Positions 2,998-20,217 of a stretch of DNA of 20,850 bases are shown here, piece after piece (the stretch's first letter is position 1; the number at the start of each line of letters is the position of its first letter). The notes beneath the pieces were generated by a model, which saw nothing but the letters and a program-made list of their open reading frames with translations, had not been told where the DNA came from and did no database searches. The DNA lies in the IMG/VR virus record IMGVR_UViG_3300005096_000172, positions 1 through 20,850 of that record, one strand, 5' to 3'. Made by a program: the position numbers and the translations under genes. The DNA is from a virus.

Positions 2998-3213
2998 TCA
3001 ACTATTTGACCTTAGTAGTCTAGTAGCTATTCGTCTGTTCAGCGTCATTCTATCCGCACCTGATAATTCAGAAGTAAGCTTGTTATAGTGCTTTTGCTTC
3101 TCTTTTATATTTTCATTTTCGATACGAATAAGCTTGGTCATCTTGATCAATTGAGCGAAGACATTCCAACTGCCATCTATCCTCGGCCGTTTACCATCAA
3201 AATTATCCATCAT
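2998..3213 (-). CDS. Small basic helical protein of unknown function
   Basis: A 71-residue protein, very rich in Lys, Arg and Asn, with a long amphipathic helix (residues about 20-55) and a basic tail (NRRIATRLLRSNS). The ATG at 3213 overlaps the last codons of the pentapeptide-repeat gene, so the two are probably co-translated in the leftward operon. The basic helical make-up would suit a nucleic-acid-binding or partner-binding role, but I recognise no family. Confidence 0.6.
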   Translation of the reverse strand: MMDNFDGKRPRIDGSWNVFAQLIKMTKLIRIENENIKEKQKHYNKLTSELSGADRMTLNRRIATRLLRSNS

Positions 3214-3524
3214 TTTAGCTGTGCATCTGTTAAATTAGAACGGAATAGATTAGTACCTAATAAATAAGAATGTATTAGATCAGTCCCCTGTAAATTAGAA
3301 TTTGTTAACGTAGCATCTGTTAAGTTAGTTTTTTGCATGCTAGCAAACGCTAAATTAGCGTGACGTAAGTTAGCGCGCGATAAATCCATGCCGATTAAAT
3401 CAGCACATTCTAACGAAACACCTTTTTTAACTGCAAGCTCTATAAGCTCTCGCTCGCTGACACAATTGTACGAAAATAGTATTTCCCCTGTTTTCCATTT
3501 ATTAATATCCATTATCTTCTCCAT
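3210..3524 (-). CDS. Pentapeptide-repeat protein
   Basis: A 104-residue protein. Residues 1-40 are a lead-in domain. From residue 41 to the end there are about twelve consecutive five-residue units of the A(D/N)LXX type: ADLIG, MDLSR, ANLRH, ANLAF, ASMQK, TNLTD and so on. Such units form a right-handed quadrilateral beta-helix. Some family members (Qnr, MfpA) mimic DNA and protect DNA gyrase, but most phage examples have no known function. The start at 3524 lies inside the upstream HTH gene (23-base overlap), which supports one operon. This repeat set is short compared with Qnr-type proteins, so gyrase protection is not implied. Confidence 0.85.
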   Translation of the reverse strand: MEKIMDINKWKTGEILFSYNCVSERELIELAVKKGVSLECADLIGMDLSRANLRHANLAFASMQKTNLTDATLTNSNLQGTDLIHSYLLGTNLFRSNLTDAQLK

Positions 3525-8125: not shown

Positions 8126-8151
8126 ACAACAATATAAGAAAACGCTAATAT
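8126..8151 (+). repeat. 26-bp direct repeat, copy 2 (leader of terL)
   Basis: 24 of 26 bases match 7801-7826. The last two bases are the first two of the large terminase ATG. A purine-rich AAGAAAACG takes the SD position, so the terminase start has only a weak SD. Confidence 0.8.
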
Positions 8152-9640
8152 GTCAAAAGGCAAAACAATAGAATACATCCAAATCATGGAAGAGCAAGTA
8201 AGGAGGAATAACAATAGTCGCCTCGAACGGATATACGAGTCATTCTACGATTGGCAAATGAAGTTTGTAGCGGGAACGAAAGACTATACTGTTGCCGCAT
8301 TACTTGGAGGAAACAGGGTCGGAAAAACCAGAACAGGTCTAGTGATAGATGCATATCACTTAAGGGGTGATTATCCAGAGAATTGGCCTGGGGTAAAATA
8401 TGACTTTCCGCCGCTTTGTTGGCTATTAGGCTATTCAGGAGAAAAAACCCGCGATTTACTACAGTATAAATTGTTCGGGAGATACATCGAAAAAAGGTTT
8501 GAAGGAGGGCTTATTCCCGCAGACAGAATCGTAAGCCATCTATCGATGCAAGGCACGTCTGGCGCAATGAGAGAGGTCAGAGTCAAGCATGTTAACGGTA
8601 TTTCTACATGCCAATTCTGGTCTTACTCTCAAGGACAGAGCGCGTTAATGGGTGATAATGTTGACCATTTTCATTTTGACGAAGAAGCAGAGAAGCCGGA
8701 TATTTTCCCGCAGGTTGTAACCAGAACATTAACAGGTAACAGAGGTAAGGGTGGGGGGGGGATACTCACGTTAACGCCTGAATACGGGAAGACCCAATTA
8801 ATTTGTAAGCTAATGGGAGAAAGTTCTGATTTAGAAGAGGGCGAAGATGAGATAAATATCGAAACGGATAGCATGTATTTACAAACTGCTACCTGGGATC
8901 AATGCCCTCATATCGACGAAGACGCTCGACGTAAAATAATGTCAATATATCCGGCTCACCAAAAAAAAATGCGCTCAATGGGCGTACCTTTAATGGGGGC
9001 TGGGCTAATATATGACGTGGATGAGGATCTAATAAAATGTAAGCCGTTTGAAATACCAGACTATTGGTTTGTTATTAACGGGTTAGATTTCGGATGGAAC
9101 CACCCGCAAGCACACATACAACTCGTATGGGATCGTGATGCCGATATATATTATGTGATAAATGCGTGGAAGGCATCTAGAAAACAGCCGTTCGAGGCTT
9201 GGCATGTAATCAAGAAGTGGGCCGAAAACATACCTACGGCTTGGCCTAGCGATGGATTACAAACTGAAAAAGGTTCTGCAAAACAACAGAGGGTTTATTA
9301 CAAAGACGAAGGCTTTAATCTATTGTCTGAACATGCTACATGGGAAGACGGGGGCAATGGCAGATGGGCTGGTATCGTTGAGCTTAATAACCTAATGAAA
9401 ACTGGACGACTAAAGATTGTTTCTTCGCTTCATGAGGTCTTTGAAGAGCTTAGACAGTATCACACCAAAGACACCGGAAACGGAAAGTCTGAAATAGTAA
9501 AGATTAAAGATGATTTATTAGACGCAATTAGATATGCATATATGATGCGCCGCCACGCCATAAGAATAATGGATCTATATCAAGACGACTACCAGCATTT
9601 GCAGCAAGATCAAAGCCGAGATGATACAACTGGCTATTGA
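8150..9640 (+). CDS. terL: Terminase large subunit (P22 gp2-like)
   Basis: A 496-residue protein, close to the 499 of P22 gp2. It is the ATP-driven packaging motor and headful nuclease that docks on the portal. Walker A GGNRVGKT is at residues 53-60 and Walker B VDHFHFDEEAE at about 171-181, with the catalytic Glu after the Asp. The C-terminal RNase H-like nuclease shows D313 (GLDFGWNHPQAHIQL), D368 (AWPSDG) and D454/455 (DDLLDAIRYAYMMRR). The stretch from GLDFGW to YMMRR follows P22 gp2 closely from memory. Start at ATG 8150, whose weak SD lies within a repeated leader. Gene context: the small terminase is 5.3 kb to the left and the portal 4.5 kb to the right. The gene appears intact. Confidence 0.95.
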   Translation: MSKGKTIEYIQIMEEQVRRNNNSRLERIYESFYDWQMKFVAGTKDYTVAALLGGNRVGKTRTGLVIDAYHLRGDYPENWPGVKYDFPPLCWLLGYSGEKTRDLLQYKLFGRYIEKRFEGGLIPADRIVSHLSMQGTSGAMREVRVKHVNGISTCQFWSYSQGQSALMGDNVDHFHFDEEAEKPDIFPQVVTRTLTGNRGKGGGGILTLTPEYGKTQLICKLMGESSDLEEGEDEINIETDSMYLQTATWDQCPHIDEDARRKIMSIYPAHQKKMRSMGVPLMGAGLIYDVDEDLIKCKPFEIPDYWFVINGLDFGWNHPQAHIQLVWDRDADIYYVINAWKASRKQPFEAWHVIKKWAENIPTAWPSDGLQTEKGSAKQQRVYYKDEGFNLLSEHATWEDGGNGRWAGIVELNNLMKTGRLKIVSSLHEVFEELRQYHTKDTGNGKSEIVKIKDDLLDAIRYAYMMRRHAIRIMDLYQDDYQHLQQDQSRDDTTGY

Positions 9641-9922: not shown

Positions 9923-9943
9923 TTGCCGGTAAAAAACATACGC

Positions 9944-9978
<35 letters not shown>

Positions 9979-9988
9979 TGAGCATCTA

Positions 9989-10114
9989 ATGCCAAAATTA
10001 TTAACGTGCCCAATATGCAAGCATAAAGTATTGAAGAACTCGCATGCTAAAACATGCTCTGTAAGGTGCAGGGTAAAGAAGATGAGAGATGGTCGTAAGA
10101 ATAGAGAAGATTAG
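9989..10114 (+). CDS. Zinc-finger-like miniprotein
   Basis: A 41-residue protein starting MPKLLTCPICKHKVLKNSHA, then 'KTCSVRCRVKKMRDGRKN'. CPIC and CSVRC make a C-x2-C...C-x3-C zinc site followed by a basic tail, a common layout in small phage nucleic-acid-binding proteins. I chose the ATG at 9989. The same frame is open upstream to a TTG at 9923 through the hexanucleotide repeat (giving an Arg-Gly run) and is in frame with the preceding gene, so a longer or read-through product is possible. No clear SD precedes 9989; the GGGG run at 9972 is 13 bases away. Confidence 0.55.
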   Translation: MPKLLTCPICKHKVLKNSHAKTCSVRCRVKKMRDGRKNRED

Positions 10115-14071: not shown

Positions 14072-14194
14072 ATGTGCCCAAATTGCATCAAAGAAAAAGA
14101 TAAGCCGCTTACTTACGCAAAATGTACTCTTTGTGACGGCTACCGCCTGCTTACTCCCCAAGAACTCGACAAGATCAAAAGAAGGAAACGCTAA
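14072..14194 (+). CDS. 40-residue double-CxxC zinc miniprotein
   Basis: MCPNCIKEKDKPLTYAKCTL then CDGYRLLTPQEL and a basic end KIKRRKR. CPNC (2, 5) and CTLC (18, 21) form a compact four-Cys zinc site. The TAA overlaps the portal ATG (TAATG), so it is the first gene of the head operon by position. No SD precedes it; an 11-bp dyad ends just upstream. Confidence 0.6.
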   Translation: MCPNCIKEKDKPLTYAKCTLCDGYRLLTPQELDKIKRRKR

Positions 14195-16413
14195 TGGTTC
14201 CTCCTGATGAAATGCGCGGGTTAATGCCTCAACCACCAGATATAGAGGAACCACCCTCAGAAAATCTTGAGCTTGACGATGCTTATGGTGAAGAAGAGAA
14301 AACCGACTCTCCATTGATGAAATATCTAGATCAAGGGAATATTGTCGAAGAGCTAGAAGACAACTCAAAAACAGCTACCGATATTATTGGGTTGTATGAT
14401 GAGGCTTTTATCTCAATGAAGCCTTGGCGTAAAAAGTACGACCGCGCTCTAAACCTAGCAAAGTTACAGCCCACAGCAAATGGTAAGGAAATAACGAAAA
14501 AAACCTTTCCTTTTGACGGCGCAAGCTTGGCGATGATGCCTTACATCCTAGAAGCGGCTCTTGATTTTAACTCTAGATCTGCTCCAGAATTAGCATGGGC
14601 TAATAAAATAGTTCACGTTAAAGCGTATGGTAAAAATACACAAGAGAAGGAAGACAGAGTTAAGCGTGTTGCAGATTTTTCCAACGCTCAGCTAGACGAG
14701 CTAATCCCGCAATGGAAGTCAGAGCAAGATAAGTGCTTATTTAATCTTCCGATTGTTGGTACATCCTACAAAGAAACATATTACGATTATGAAGAGCAAC
14801 GAGTAAAATCTGACCTCGTACTAGCGGATAAAATCGTATTTAATCACAATTACTCTTCATTTGAAGAATCCCCGGATAAGTTCAAAGAATGCGAATTTAC
14901 TAGAAACCAGGTAATCGGGTTTATTAGAGGTGAGCAAAAGTGGGATCTAAGTGAGGATGATCTAGAAGAAGACAAAGAAGACTTTAAATTCATTAAGGCT
15001 TATACCTGGATAGATTTAGACGATGACGGTCTCAAAGAGCCTTATGTTGCTATTGTTTACAAAGAAATAGATAAGATTGTCTGTTTGTACCCTTGTTATG
15101 ACGAGGATACAATTATCATGAATAAAAAAAATGAAATTGTCAAAGTAACGCCTATTGAGTACTTCACCCAGTATCGATTCATTCCAGATCCAGAGGGCGG
15201 CCCAATGGGCTTAGGCTGGGGAATATTGTTAGGCCCGATGTTTGAGTCTATCAATACGACAATGAGACAGCTTAACGATGCAGGTACGTTAAGCCTCACC
15301 GCTGCAAACTCAGGGCTGATATCTAAGCAAATGGCATCTGGCCGAGGTAATGCGGCAAAATCTGGGCCAATTGAAATCGCCATGGGCAAGTTTACCCAAA
15401 TAGAAATGAGCGGCTCCGGTAGCTTGCGAGATAACATTGTTCAACTCCCATTCGCTGGTCCTAACCCAGTCATGATGCAGCTATTAGAGTCCCTGATAGC
15501 ATCCGCTAGGTCAATGACAAATGCCGCTGTGAATGTCCAAGCCCAGGCGGGGGAAGCCGCTGCGCTTTATCTCGCTAAATTACAGCAAGGGTTGAAGATT
15601 CCAAACTCCATCATCATGCGAGTACATGATGGCGCTAAGAAAGAGTTTAAAAAAATATCCCTGCTTAATTACAAGCATTTCGACGATGAGCTATACAATA
15701 ATATCCTTGACATTGATATCCAGGTGTCGATGGAAAAGGATTTCAACCCCAAAGACTTTGATTTAAAACCGGTTGCTGACCCATCCCAGGGATCGGATGT
15801 TGAAAGGCTTCAGCGCGCTCAAATTGTTTTTGATATGGCGAAAGACCCTCAACAACCACAGCAGGTTGGTAACTATAGAGCGGCTTATATCGGTCTATTA
15901 GAAGCCATGAAAACACCGAACATCGATGAACTTGCCCCTGAGCCAGACCCGAATGCAAAAGACCCCCAGGCCGAAATGCAGCAAGCTATGATAATGCAGC
16001 AAATGGCCGATATGGAGCTGAAGAAGAAAGATCAAGATTTAAGAGCCGAAGAAAACAAAATGAAGCAGCTTAGAATCACAATGGAACAGCAAAAGCAGGC
16101 TATGCAAGCAGCTAAGGACATGGGAGACCTTGGCATTAGGAATGACAAAACAGAGGCTGAGATACAGCGTTTGTATGTTCAGTCACTTGTTGATTTAGTT
16201 AACCTAGGTCTTCCTATTGACAGCGCAATTTCAAAAACACAACAAATAGAAAGTACGTTTATTGATTCCAAGGCCGGGAGTAAAGACACGCCAATAGAAC
16301 TAGAGTACGATCCATTTAGCGGATCTATAAATGATAGGGTTCCAGATATGCCACCGTCTGAACCTATCTCTCCTTCTGAACCTATGATGGCAGAACCAAA
16401 TGCCGTACTTTAA
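14194..16413 (+). CDS. Portal protein (p19-like)
   Basis: A 739-residue protein forming the dodecameric ring at the packaging vertex, where it docks the large terminase and later the tail. The region of about residues 45-110 ('KPWRKKYDRALNLAKLQPTA', 'TFPFDGASLAMMPYILEAAL') and 'YTWIDLDDDGLKEPYVAIVY' match the portal type often called p19 in environmental phages. The middle 'LGWGILLGPMFESINTTMRQ' is a strong family signature. The C-terminal 150 residues are Gln/Met/Lys-rich helix ('MQQAMIMQQMADMELKKKDQ'), like portal barrel helices. Length is usual for podovirus portals (P22 gp1 is 725). SD AAGGAA lies before the ATG, which overlaps the upstream TAA. It looks intact. Confidence 0.9.
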   Translation: MVPPDEMRGLMPQPPDIEEPPSENLELDDAYGEEEKTDSPLMKYLDQGNIVEELEDNSKTATDIIGLYDEAFISMKPWRKKYDRALNLAKLQPTANGKEITKKTFPFDGASLAMMPYILEAALDFNSRSAPELAWANKIVHVKAYGKNTQEKEDRVKRVADFSNAQLDELIPQWKSEQDKCLFNLPIVGTSYKETYYDYEEQRVKSDLVLADKIVFNHNYSSFEESPDKFKECEFTRNQVIGFIRGEQKWDLSEDDLEEDKEDFKFIKAYTWIDLDDDGLKEPYVAIVYKEIDKIVCLYPCYDEDTIIMNKKNEIVKVTPIEYFTQYRFIPDPEGGPMGLGWGILLGPMFESINTTMRQLNDAGTLSLTAANSGLISKQMASGRGNAAKSGPIEIAMGKFTQIEMSGSGSLRDNIVQLPFAGPNPVMMQLLESLIASARSMTNAAVNVQAQAGEAAALYLAKLQQGLKIPNSIIMRVHDGAKKEFKKISLLNYKHFDDELYNNILDIDIQVSMEKDFNPKDFDLKPVADPSQGSDVERLQRAQIVFDMAKDPQQPQQVGNYRAAYIGLLEAMKTPNIDELAPEPDPNAKDPQAEMQQAMIMQQMADMELKKKDQDLRAEENKMKQLRITMEQQKQAMQAAKDMGDLGIRNDKTEAEIQRLYVQSLVDLVNLGLPIDSAISKTQQIESTFIDSKAGSKDTPIELEYDPFSGSINDRVPDMPPSEPISPSEPMMAEPNAVL

Positions 16414-17311
16414 AATATACATAAAAGGGAAAGATACTCCACTAGAGTATTACGAAGACTCTGAAGCCATTGAATTCGTGAAACAAAAACTCGACGAGAA
16501 ATTTGCACCGCTAAAAGAATTCGCAAAGAAAGCATGGGGCGGAATGTCCCCTTTCGATAAGGCGGCATTAGCAACCGCACCACTGCCTATTATTGGCGAC
16601 ATAACCGGCCTAGTAGCTGATGCCGATATGTTTATAAATGATCCAGAAAGTAGGACATTGTTAAATGCGGGGCTTTCGGCAGCTGGATTGATTCCTTTTG
16701 TCCCGGCGCTGAGCACGGTTAGAAAAGTAAATAACCCACCTATGGATGAAGCAAGCAAGATGGAAAGAGCGAAAGAGCAGGGATATAAAAGAGGTTTTTA
16801 CAGGGGCGGTAAGCCCCCGGACGAAAAAGGACTTATGGGTGGTCAGCAATTTTATTCAAGAGATAAAGAATATGCCGAGGGGTTTGGTGAGAAATCGCCA
16901 GATTTTAGAGAATATATGTTAAATATCGAGAAACCCCTAAATTGGAATAGTGCTATAAATAAGGCCGATATAGATGATATCGAATCTTATTTGAATAAAA
17001 TAGGTGACAAAAGATTATCCCCTTACTTGCAGGATATTGTCGCTACTGATTATGAAGGGGAAATATCAGGAGCAACATTATACCAACTTTTAGATAATGT
17101 TGGCATTGAAACTCCCGAAGGAATTTTAAAAGCCTCAGGTTTTGATGCAATAGATACAGGAAGAGATGTCCGTAAAATTACAAAAGAAGGGGTCAGAGAC
17201 CTTACAGCAGCCTTTGACCCCTCTAAGAAGCTAGATCCTAATGTATTTGCGACTGGTGCGGTCGGAGCTATAGGATTAAGCGCAATTAACGATGAAGATA
17301 GTCAAGATTGA
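16400..17311 (+). CDS. ADP-ribosyltransferase-like protein coupled to portal
   Basis: A 303-residue protein starting inside the portal gene (14-base overlap). Three parts can be seen. Residues 1-50 form a short charged lead. Residues 57-110 ('LPIIGDITGLVADADMFIND', 'GLSAAGLIPFVPALSTVRK') are a hydrophobic pre-toxin-like region typical of phage polyvalent or injected proteins. Residues 130-277 resemble the ADP-ribosyltransferase fold: GFYRGG (132-137), QQFYSRDKEYAEGFG (149-163), YMLNIEKPLNW (172-182), GFDAID (247-252) and LTAAFDPSKK (268-277). In related ART-like effectors the last motif usually carries a Glu; here an Asp lies nearby and no E-x-E is visible, so activity is uncertain. Position suggests virion packaging and injection. 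Role inferred. Confidence 0.6.
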   Translation: MPYFKIYIKGKDTPLEYYEDSEAIEFVKQKLDEKFAPLKEFAKKAWGGMSPFDKAALATAPLPIIGDITGLVADADMFINDPESRTLLNAGLSAAGLIPFVPALSTVRKVNNPPMDEASKMERAKEQGYKRGFYRGGKPPDEKGLMGGQQFYSRDKEYAEGFGEKSPDFREYMLNIEKPLNWNSAINKADIDDIESYLNKIGDKRLSPYLQDIVATDYEGEISGATLYQLLDNVGIETPEGILKASGFDAIDTGRDVRKITKEGVRDLTAAFDPSKKLDPNVFATGAVGAIGLSAINDEDSQD

Positions 17312-17496
17312 TGTTTATTAACATATCTATAAATACACCCAGTGCCAAGGCTTTTCACTACAGTTTTAGAGAACTTATGCTGGTTCTCTTTAGCTATATT
17401 GACTGCCATACCTTCATCTTTACCGCTATAAAGAGGTTTAAGGGCTTGATTAAAATCATCGTCTGGCCAAGTTACACCGTATGTCCAACAATACAT
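17302..17496 (-). CDS. Antisense moron-like small gene
   Basis: A 64-residue protein on the minus strand, MYCWTYGVTWPDDDFNQALK, ending 'GTGCIYRYVNKHQS'. The ATG at 17496 has a near-perfect SD (AAAGGAGAG) 5 bases away and a strong extended -10 promoter just upstream. Its 3' end overlaps the end of the convergent ART-like gene by 10 bases. A single gene with its own promoter, opposing a late head operon, is the definition of a moron, often expressed from the prophage to alter the host. I do not recognise the family. The plus-strand frame over the same stretch (17308-17553) lacks an SD and looks like a shadow. Confidence 0.65.
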   Translation of the reverse strand: MYCWTYGVTWPDDDFNQALKPLYSGKDEGMAVNIAKENQHKFSKTVVKSLGTGCIYRYVNKHQS

Positions 17497-17569: not shown

Positions 17570-17938
17570 TTGATAATAATAGACAAACAAGAAATATTGA
17601 CGGCCAGTTTGCTAGAGCATACTGCGGAGCTTACCTTGACATATAAGAAAATAGATCAAATACAACTAGAACAATGGCTGATTAATCCGGTAACTAAAGC
17701 ATATTTCCAGTCTATTTACTGGAGCAATGATCAATTGAAAGAAGTGCAAGGTAACGGCGGAACATTTAACGTCAATAGCATGGAAAAAACCTTTGTAGAT
17801 ACAGCGCTTTATGAAGGTAAAAAGCAAGGATATGAATGCGCGATGGATGTATTCAGTGAGCTTAATCGGTTTGATTTTTTAGAAGACGGAATTGATGTAG
17901 ATATTCCAGATTTTAAAGATATAGCAGAGGAGGAGTAA
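17570..17938 (+). CDS. Head-module protein of unknown function
   Basis: A 122-residue acidic, helical protein. The frame has no ATG near its start; the likely start is TTG at 17570 (then IIIDKQEILTASLLEHTAEL) with no clear SD, and in-frame stops exclude anything upstream of 17546. 'VTKAYFQSIYWSNDQLKEVQ' and 'GYECAMDVFSELNRFDFLED' look like a conserved small protein between portal and scaffold genes. The interval 17497-17569 carries the antisense promoter. Function unknown. Confidence 0.6.
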   Translation: MIIIDKQEILTASLLEHTAELTLTYKKIDQIQLEQWLINPVTKAYFQSIYWSNDQLKEVQGNGGTFNVNSMEKTFVDTALYEGKKQGYECAMDVFSELNRFDFLEDGIDVDIPDFKDIAEEE

Positions 17939-17944
17939 TATTTT

Positions 17945-18457
17945 ATGGGGATTACCACGACAATAGAGGTAAAAGAAAGCGGCCTACCTGTCAAGATAGA
18001 GTTAAAGGAGTGGATAGAATCAGACCTTGCAAAATCACTTGAAAGCGAAGAAGACTTTAGTAAGTGGGGATTATTTGGGGTTGTCGATTCTTTATGTGCT
18101 AATGAGAATTATGAATGCAGTATCGGCAATCAGCTTAGGTTTGAGAATCATGTTTATGCTGCGAACGTGGAAGGGGTAAACATGAAGGCTCTTAAAACAA
18201 TGATTGGAGAGATATTGATTTCGCTTAGAGATTCGGCGATTGCTCTTAAGCTTGAAGGTATGAACATAGGATCTGGCCGGTTAATTATACAAGATAGGAT
18301 GGGAGTAGTTATTGACAGGGATGGTGATTATGATGATATTTCAGGAGATGGGGAAAGCACAACGTTTAAGCGATCCAGTAAGTACAAGGCAATGTGGTAT
18401 GGGTGTATGACAAGGATGCCTGAAGGCTATGAGCACAAGCCACACAACAGAAAATAG
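17945..18457 (+). CDS. Protein of unknown function in head module
   Basis: A 170-residue protein with GAGGAG 9 bases before the ATG. 'NVEGVNMKALKTMIGEILIS' and 'RLIIQDRMGVVIDRDGDYDD' suggest a mixed alpha/beta domain with a surface Asp-rich loop. The C-terminus is basic (HKPHNRK). No known family. Located six bases after the previous stop in the same operon. Confidence 0.6.
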   Translation: MGITTTIEVKESGLPVKIELKEWIESDLAKSLESEEDFSKWGLFGVVDSLCANENYECSIGNQLRFENHVYAANVEGVNMKALKTMIGEILISLRDSAIALKLEGMNIGSGRLIIQDRMGVVIDRDGDYDDISGDGESTTFKRSSKYKAMWYGCMTRMPEGYEHKPHNRK

Positions 18458-18468
18458 AGGATAAATAG

Positions 18469-18705
18469 ATGGATAAAGAGATAGATACAGAATTAAGCTT
18501 TGGTGAGGCATTTGATAAAACGAAAAAAGGTGGAGCTATGCGGCTTCCATCATGGATGCCTGACGTTTTAATAAAAGCGCAATACCCCGGCCCATATAGC
18601 AAAATGACGGCCCCTTATTTATATGTAGAGTCGAGACATGGGAAAGGACCGTGGAAAGAAACTATGATTGAGCTATTTTCTAATGAATGGGTTTATATAA
18701 AATAA
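18469..18705 (+). CDS. DUF2829/Tad2-like protein, anti-Thoeris candidate
   Basis: A 78-residue protein. 'LSFGEAFDKTKKGGAMRLPS' then W, 'KMTAPYLYVESRHGKGPWKE' and 'IELFSNEWVYIK' follow the DUF2829 pattern closely: F-x-x-A....k.G....R...W, then PYLY, PW and a final (D/E)W. Members called Tad2 form tetramers that bind and sequester the cyclic ADP-ribose-type signal of Thoeris defence. Length and motif order are complete. SD AGAGGATAA lies before the ATG. The assignment to the family is fairly firm; anti-Thoeris activity is inference, as not every family member has been tested. Confidence 0.7.
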   Translation: MDKEIDTELSFGEAFDKTKKGGAMRLPSWMPDVLIKAQYPGPYSKMTAPYLYVESRHGKGPWKETMIELFSNEWVYIK

Positions 18706-18972
18706 ATGGAAAGAAGACTAAAGCTAGGTTACATAAGTATGAATGAGCTAGTTGCTCACGGTAAGAATGCCGGTGATGTCTTAGAAGACATGTTAAAAAA
18801 ACAGAACGCCCATAAGATAAATCAAGCAGATGATTTAACAACAGGGTCGTTATTGATGGTGCTTTATTGTGAGGATTGGCCCATTGTTAAGTTAGGAGCA
18901 AAACTAGAGAAGATAGTTTTGCCGTTAGGTAAGCCGAAAGAGACATCGGCAAAAATTGCATATAATCATTAG
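18706..18972 (+). CDS. Small protein of unknown function
   Basis: An 88-residue protein starting MERRLKLGYISMNELVAHGK, its ATG directly following the upstream stop (TAAATG) without its own clear SD, so probably coupled. Mixed helices and one strand ('SLLMVLYCEDWPIVKLGAKL'). It ends 8 bases before the cochaperonin gene. Unknown family. Confidence 0.55.
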   Translation: MERRLKLGYISMNELVAHGKNAGDVLEDMLKKQNAHKINQADDLTTGSLLMVLYCEDWPIVKLGAKLEKIVLPLGKPKETSAKIAYNH

Positions 18973-18980
18973 GAGATATT

Positions 18981-19397
18981 ATGTATATAAGTGATGAAGA
19001 TGTTAACGCGGCTAAAGAGTTGATAGCCAACGGCGAAGCAGTTCCGGTAGGTTATAGGGTAATGGTTCGCTCTATTCATGTGGATACGAATCTTGACTCG
19101 TATTCAAAGAGTGAGTTTCCGACACTTGGCGAGATTGAGTTCCAGGATAAAACAGATGATGAGGCCGTGAGGCAGTCAGTAGGGACTTATTTTGGTTTAG
19201 TCGTTGATGTTGGTGATTTTGCCTATGGCGGCGGAAGGCTCGGAGACAAGCCATGGGTAGAAAAAAGCGATGTTGCTATTTTTGAGCGATACGCCGGAGT
19301 TAGAGTTGATTTCAACGGTGATGAGTACCGTTTTATGAACGATGAAAACATCTTAGGAAAGATAATGCCTAAAAGTGAGGTAGAAAATGTCAAATGA
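18981..19397 (+). CDS. GroES-like cochaperonin
   Basis: A 138-residue protein. 'AVPVGYRVMVRSIHVDTNLD' is the first strand pair of the Cpn10 fold. 'TYFGLVVDVGDFAYGGG' is the G-x-V-x-x-V-G strand, 'PWVEKSDVAIFERYAGVRVD' the V(G/D)D-x-V-x-F-x-(R/K)-Y-x-G strand, and 'EYRFMNDENILGKI' the final strand. These are the Cpn10 landmarks as seen in phage forms. Such proteins replace or assist host GroES so that GroEL can fold the phage capsid protein (T4 gp31 is the classic case). The segment between 'VDTNL' and 'GEI' would hold the mobile loop. SD AGGAGA before the ATG. It overlaps the scaffold gene by 11 bases, fitting a role in capsid folding. Confidence 0.75.
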   Translation: MYISDEDVNAAKELIANGEAVPVGYRVMVRSIHVDTNLDSYSKSEFPTLGEIEFQDKTDDEAVRQSVGTYFGLVVDVGDFAYGGGRLGDKPWVEKSDVAIFERYAGVRVDFNGDEYRFMNDENILGKIMPKSEVENVK

Positions 19398-20217
19398 AGC
19401 GCTAGAAGAAAAGCTAGATGTGGAAGAAAATCTAGAGACTGAAGAAAAAAAAGAGCAAGAAGGGTATATGGAGCATGAGCAATGGATCGCGGCTGGAAAA
19501 GATCCTGAAAAATTCCGAGGCCGAAAGGCTTTTGATGATCATGGTGAGTCTATCCAGACAATAAAAGATTTGAAAAACCAATTTAGTCGATTTAGTGAAA
19601 CCGTTGGCGAGCTAAAGGCAACATATGAACAAGATGCCAATCGTCGAGTAGAGCAAGCAAGAACTGAAATTCAGGCGGAAATTGAAAAAGCAAGGGAAGA
19701 TGAAGATATTCAAGCTTTTGAAGCTGCTAAAAACAAACTCGATGGTTTAAAACAGACAGAACAGACAGTTAGGCCGTTGGGAATTATCCAAGAGTTTTTG
19801 AGCAAAAACCCTGTATTAGATGCTAATAGCGATCAATTTGACTCGAATTTATATGGCACATGGGCTAAAACGCATGATGCGACGCTTGATTCTATTCTTA
19901 GCGGTGACAGAAACAAACAAAATACTTTAACGGAAGATGAAATATCGAGGTCGATGAATGGTGCTATGCAAACGGCTAAAGGGCTATATCCGGAGAAATT
20001 CACGTCTTCTCGAAATTCTCGCCAACAAGCACCCACTGGAGGGACTAAAAAGCCAACGCAATCAGTTGATTACCGCTCCAGGTTAAAAGATATCCCGTCA
20101 AATATCATGAATAGCAGAGATACGACTGCAAATATCGATATGTATGATCTTTTGTTGAAGAAAGGATCTAAAAAAGATGCTGACGATTATGCAAAAGCTG
20201 TGTTAGGAGATAAATAA
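19387..20217 (+). CDS. Scaffolding protein
   Basis: A 276-residue protein, acidic at the N-terminus (EEKLDVEENLETEEKKEQEG) and with a long coiled-coil in the middle (about residues 50-115: 'QFSRFSETVGELKATYEQDA', 'RVEQARTEIQAEIEKARED'). The C-terminal part is basic (SRNSRQQAPTGGTKKPTQS), and capsid-binding ends of scaffold proteins are usually basic. Size, composition and position after the portal and before the expected capsid gene all fit a procapsid scaffold that leaves during packaging. Its sequence is not close to P22 gp8 as far as I can tell. SD GAGGT precedes the ATG. Confidence 0.75.
   Translation: MSNEALEEKLDVEENLETEEKKEQEGYMEHEQWIAAGKDPEKFRGRKAFDDHGESIQTIKDLKNQFSRFSETVGELKATYEQDANRRVEQARTEIQAEIEKAREDEDIQAFEAAKNKLDGLKQTEQTVRPLGIIQEFLSKNPVLDANSDQFDSNLYGTWAKTHDATLDSILSGDRNKQNTLTEDEISRSMNGAMQTAKGLYPEKFTSSRNSRQQAPTGGTKKPTQSVDYRSRLKDIPSNIMNSRDTTANIDMYDLLLKKGSKKDADDYAKAVLGDK

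Follow-up and report, generated by a model that had tools for sequence, protein, structure and literature searches.

A short-branch Tad2-family gene in a variable head-module slot of a phage, probably encoding a signal sponge of changed specificity

The head module of a phage known from IMG/VR record IMGVR_UViG_3300005096_000172 carries a small gene of the Tad2 family (PF11195, formerly DUF2829), and its product, a member of a short and divergent branch, is on balance best understood as a sponge for a TIR-type signal whose specificity has changed along that branch and which is encoded in an accessory slot of the module. The window, i.e., the whole stretch of DNA that was analysed, covers positions 1 to 20,850 of the record (20,850 nucleotides). 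The family is known and the gene call is correct, and for its divergent branch a change of ligand is plausible from sequence comparison. Seen for the window alone, the gene is ordinary, an accessory gene from a known family. The analysis shows the family, the fold, the branch with its changed segments, and the genomic slot with its recurrence; oligomeric state, ligand, anti-defence activity and the argument on timing are inferred.

The open reading frame starts with ATG, has 78 codons and keeps exactly the coordinates first called (Table 1); its product is MDKEIDTELSFGEAFDKTKKGGAMRLPSWMPDVLIKAQYPGPYSKMTAPYLYVESRHGKGPWKETMIELFSNEWVYIK. The gene is tightly packed, with an 11-base gap upstream and a 0-base gap downstream. 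An imperfect 12-base tandem repeat (18452-18487) spans the ribosome-binding site and the start of the gene, and it codes for part of an N-terminal extension that is missing in most relatives. The original prediction had placed the gene in DUF2829/Tad2 from its motif order, and the profile search bears this out: Tad2-like is the sole Pfam family called for the protein (28.7 bits, E=2e-06, against a gathering cut-off of 25 bits), and PHROG 1048, to which no function is assigned, matches as well. A leave-one-out profile of 40 related short phage proteins, with the window protein excluded, scores it at 125.7 bits, and among 2,000 shuffles of its residues the highest score was 7.3 bits, which rules out chance similarity. 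None of the NCBIfam models matches the protein, and a PDB search with the protein as a single sequence gave no match; a family profile is required, and a nine-sequence profile with the window protein as one row recovers every solved Tad2 chain present in the PDB (E 2e-11 to 3e-07). This is a real gene of the Tad2 family.

The predicted structure points the same way. An AlphaFold2 model of the single chain, built from a 47-row alignment, has a pLDDT of 92.6, and the top 11 Foldseek matches in the PDB are all Tad2 chains (probability 1.00 each, TM 0.73-0.81); the first match outside the family has a probability of 0.08, and nothing else is convincing. The matched chains are SPO1, Myroides and Spt Tad2, either apo or with 1''-3' or 1''-2' gcADPR, His-ADPR or cGG, the ligand-bound ones being 8smf and 8smg (gcADPR), 9eib (His-ADPR) and 8wjd (cGG). 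The modelled protein thus has the Tad2 fold, at only 12-18% identity to the solved members in the structure alignment. Functional Tad2 is a homotetramer built from two V-shaped dimers.

Within the family, the protein sits on a branch of its own. Its nearest annotated phage relatives are proteins of a Latilactobacillus phage (62% identity) and Enterococcus phage 9183 (54%). In IMG/VR, 368 relatives were confirmed and the best 80 of them retained. No close relative turned up in a scan of GTDB genomes; the profile scan recovered 16 loci, spread over Bacillota, Bacteroidota and Desulfobacterota, and 55 relatives of the binned host genome contained no match. The tree, which is drawn from 73 columns only and whose bootstrap is not fully settled, groups the window protein with its short relatives and with the proteins from Enterococcus and Latilactobacillus phages; a branch 1.22 long, supported at 99/98, sets this group apart from the Tad2s of SPO1, Hgm and Mod. 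Members of this short branch have a core of about 70 aa and lack the long insertion that goes with binding of cyclic dinucleotides. The branch is divergent and, in the literature covered, uncharacterised.

A review locates the pocket of Tad2 in the beta1-beta2, beta3-beta4 and beta4-alpha3 loops together with helix alpha3 (PMC12043709). Common to the solved Tad2s are GWNGK, which follows the first strand, and W[VTL][PA]S[QV][TS]D, which precedes the last helix; we assign these two segments to two of the pocket elements by sequence order, following the description in that review (PMC12043709). The window protein retains neither, having PSWMPD in place of GWNGK and WKETMIE in place of W-x-x-S-x-x-D. 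In the short members the corresponding stretches are [Px]xWxxD and either WKETMIE or WKETNIE, which are nearly invariant across the 40 sequences compared, and the same 40 relatives keep R25, L26, W29, V33, T47-A48, Y50-V53, G58, P61-W62, E64-T65 and E68-F70 invariant or nearly so, a degree of conservation that is inflated since the set was gathered by similarity to the query. The window copy deviates from the branch consensus at G41, P42 and G60, and its insertion ahead of the third strand is shorter than in SPO1 Tad2. Read from the alignment, the strong constraint in the short branch falls in the very loops that differ from the solved members. Relatives from Aeromonas, Acinetobacter and Mycobacterium combine a short SKMT loop with canonical GWNG and LASQTD segments, so the short loop and the pocket segments have not always changed together.

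The original prediction held that the protein traps the Thoeris signal molecule. Family and fold speak for such a role, but the branch stands apart from the solved Tad2s and both compared pocket segments are replaced, so the gcADPR ligand cannot safely be carried over. Loss of ligand-pocket residues had been named in advance as what would undo that prediction, and the loss is partial: the compared segments have gone and the three core tryptophans (W29, W62, W74) are kept. SPO1 Tad2 (gp34.65; 8sme, 8smf, 8smg, 8wje) shares PF11195, the fold and these tryptophans with the window protein, but is 12-15% identical to it and has GWNGK and VPSQTD where the latter has PSWMPD and KETMIE. ModTad2 from a Myroides odoratus prophage (9eib with His-ADPR, 8v3e) is of the same family and fold and is the top Foldseek match, but differs in sequence (17-18% identity) and lies on the other side of the 99/98 branch. 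A plain Tad2 of canonical specificity, i.e., for 1''-3' gcADPR of type I Thoeris, with the changed segments simply tolerated, would agree with the shared fold (TM 0.73-0.81 to SPO1 chains with and without ligand), with the retained tryptophans, and with the conservative nature of the S-to-T and D-to-E exchanges in the last helix segment. We nevertheless consider it unlikely, the strongest of the alternatives though it is, given the low identity to every solved Tad2 and the branch-wide replacement of both segments by a near-invariant set that includes the charged K63 and E64. The explanation we favour is that the protein sequesters a TIR-derived signal and that its specificity has changed.

Further indications come from phages that carry two Tad2 genes. 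Among the best 80 of 368 relatives, a long Tad2 directly follows the short one at 12 loci in 4 independent groups (L031, L032, L033, L036, L038, L043, L053, L054, L068, L078, L079 and L012). In L054 the long partner is a match to ModTad2 (E about 8e-35), and those of L078 and L079 are of the same type; two of the four tandem groups have such a ModTad2-like gene immediately beside the short Tad2. ModTad2 binds His-ADPR (title of PDB 9eib; PMC13299392). Two different Tad2s side by side argue for different ligands, and we infer that the short and long types may fit two such ligands. At three other loci (L030 4782-5210, L080 4884-5210, L089 4899-5210), the short Tad2 is fused to an N-terminal segment that bears DGY-x-SWSP-x-x-VFEEAYR, received no Pfam call and looks Phage_gp49_66-like by eye; separate gp49_66 genes adjoin Tad2 in L036, L038, L078 and L081. 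In Aeromonas phage Ahp1_CNU-2021 (L007), a Tad2-like gene immediately precedes one for nicotinamide phosphoribosyltransferase, possibly a pair of signal sponge and NAD salvage.

The surroundings of the gene in the window are those of a head module, as first proposed, with the portal gene upstream and GroES-like and scaffold-like genes downstream (Table 1). Promoter matches in the window are no commoner than in shuffles, so the operon structure is read from gene spacing. By tblastn, the portal matches those of Alcaligenes, Pelagibacter and other phages, and PF00166 scores the GroES-like gene at 24.6 bits (cut-off 21.1). Between these borders, the slot contains the ART-like gene, two plus-strand genes of no assigned function, the Tad2-like gene and a further gene of 88 aa, as well as a possible minus-strand ORF.

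Table 1. Features of the head module around the Tad2-like gene in the window
Feature	Coordinates	Strand	Basis
Portal (head-to-tail connecting) protein, upstream border of slot	14194..16413	+	PHROG portal 2.4e-10; tblastn
ART-PolyVal-like domain protein, directly 3' of portal	16400..17311	+	Relatives L113, L114
Possible ORF, 64 aa, between ART-like gene and accessory genes	17302-17496	-	No Pfam or phage match
Accessory-slot gene, 122 aa, no assigned function	17570..17938	+	No family match
Accessory-slot gene, 170 aa, directly upstream of Tad2-like gene	17945..18457	+	No family or phage match
AGAGG ribosome-binding motif of Tad2-like gene	18456..18460	+	Direct sequence reading
Tad2-like (PF11195) gene, 78 aa, short-branch type	18469..18705	+	Pfam; leave-one-out profile; fold match
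Accessory-slot gene, 88 aa, directly downstream of Tad2-like gene	18706..18972	+	No family above cut-off
GroES-like (Cpn10) gene, downstream border of slot	18981..19397	+	PF00166; PHROG co-chaperonin; position
Scaffold-like gene (putative)	19387..20217	+	Position after GroES-like gene; no profile match

The order of portal, variable genes and GroES-like gene recurs in relatives of the window portal, and the interval holds 0 genes in Alcaligenes phage QDWS535, 1 in ct2os315 and 11 in Pelagibacter phage HTVC027P, with no Tad2 in that interval of any of the three. Because the interval varies in this way among related phages, the Tad2-like gene is an accessory gene in a variable head-module slot reaching from the portal to the GroES-like gene. 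Elsewhere in the window, the small terminase (2319-2822), large terminase (8150-9640) and portal genes are separated from one another by gaps of about 5 kb filled with small unassigned ORFs, a spacing that is not usual in a module of podophage type. The phage has a terminase about 54% identical to Pseudomonas podophage terminases and a portal from another lineage; large terminase and portal have their closest relatives in different lineages of phages. A pentapeptide-repeat protein gene (3210-3524, minus strand) lies between the terminase genes, and a perfect (GGTCGG)5.8 repeat (9944-9978) inside a small ORF (9923-10114) encodes an RGRGRG run ahead of a cysteine-rich segment.

Placement in a head operon had been thought unusual, and the relatives contradict this. 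By their flanking DNA, the best 80 of 368 relatives fall into 52 independent groups. A recognised head or packaging gene lies within 1.5 kb in 20 of them and anywhere in the available flanking stretch in 27, and seven groups have the gene between upstream packaging or portal-type genes and downstream head genes; these counts measure recurrence, not enrichment over chance. In L031, the order is TerS, TerL, portal, minor capsid, short Tad2, long Tad2 and scaffold; the pattern of packaging or portal gene, Tad2 and head gene is repeated in Pelotomaculum (L094) and Enterococcus (L105), and the relative in Latilactobacillus phage TMW 1.1381 P1 adjoins portal and terminase small-subunit genes. The head-operon placement of the Tad2-like gene is thus not unusual. 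The DUF2829 proteins of this phage and of Enterococcus phage 9183 come from siphophages or large Bacillota phages, and neither record assigns a function. The PF11195 gene p015 of the Sinorhizobium podovirus AP-20-A (PMC13299392) also stands a few genes before the predicted tail/portal genes p018-p020, but at 97 aa and about 50% identity to ModTad2 it is of the long type, unlike the window protein.

A recurrent site between portal or minor head protein and scaffold or capsid in unrelated phages, together with the very strong conservation within the branch, could also be expected of a small head-morphogenesis factor that has the Tad2 fold and no sponge role. We regard this as improbable, since relatives also occur at a distance from head genes (beside those for dUTPase and guanylate kinase in Enterococcus phage 9183, and with a recombination/replication-type region in L100), 25 of the 52 groups among the best 80 of 368 relatives have no recognised head or packaging gene in the available stretch, related phages with the same portal do without Tad2, and several phages pair the short Tad2 with a ModTad2-like sponge. 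More doubtful still is an anti-CRISPR of the AcrIIA7 type: AcrIIA7 does carry DUF2829 (PMC6739104), and 9kzr (AcrIIA7) and HgmTad2 (8kbi) appear in the same profile search and give near-identical alignments to the same query, but the window protein is distant from the HgmTad2/AcrIIA7 sequence in the tree and lacks its long insertion between the domain halves. That cyclic-dinucleotide-binding insertion (PMC12043709), missing throughout the short branch, likewise distinguishes SptTad2 (8wjd), which belongs to the same family by profile and by fold, as HgmTad2/AcrIIA7 does by profile.

The suggestion that the phage might manage NAD-derived signals by two routes, the second being the ART-like protein encoded nearby, finds no support. 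The ART-like protein of the window has no Pfam call of its own and no match in annotated phages, but the description as ART-like is backed by relatives of ART-PolyVal type (PF18760), of which L114 (110-571) scores above the cut-off and L113 (3920-4684) below it, and a MERAKEQG(Y/F) segment ahead of the domain is common to this protein and L113. By these sequence comparisons, the ART-like domain is probably real and recurs after portals elsewhere, and such proteins may represent a recurrent portal-linked ART. The L113 gene directly follows a P22-type portal on a phage contig with no Tad2 on its available stretch, and for this reason the pairing of ART-like and Tad2-like genes in the window looks incidental.

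The host was assigned by binning to a genome that is 95.6% complete, an assignment that does not prove infection. No Thoeris system was recognised in this genome, with no ThsB_TIR and no SIR2_2 domain, and STALD had no match there or in the control genomes. One protein of 445 aa (L092 523-1860, minus strand, contig C35) matches TIR_2 below threshold; as a candidate Thoeris ThsB it was rejected, not being of the ThsB type, and it looks like a different TIR protein.

By analogy with characterised Tad2s, which sequester signals without cleaving them (PMC12043709), the window protein is probably a signal sponge. It would act stoichiometrically: a small oligomer, made at the same time as the head proteins, would bind an alarm signal derived from a nucleotide, most likely an ADP-ribose derivative produced by a TIR protein, and keep this signal from its effector without degradation. 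The preferred signal is probably neither gcADPR, as for SPO1 Tad2, nor His-ADPR, as for ModTad2, because the short branch has its pocket-lining segments replaced as a set. The major capsid protein triggers Thoeris systems of staphylococci and streptococci (PMC12578639), and a portal protein triggers the TIR NADase SpbK (PMC12847820). Co-expression with head proteins would fit the moment at which such capsid- or portal-sensing TIR systems fire, which offers a rationale for the timing and not evidence for the window phage.

Beyond this single phage, it is tentatively conceivable that the short Tad2s form a separate class of sponges, directed at a TIR-derived signal that Tad2 is not yet known to counter. 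Such sponges would occur in phages of several bacterial phyla, would at times be encoded next to a His-ADPR sponge, and would be made along with the head proteins that act as triggers. If true, this would account for the presence of such genes beside those for capsid and portal, the known triggers of TIR defences (PMC12578639, PMC12847820). If the short branch does bind another signal, it would provide a ready reagent with which to find and block that signal, as well as a test of whether phages stack differently specific sponges in the head operon.
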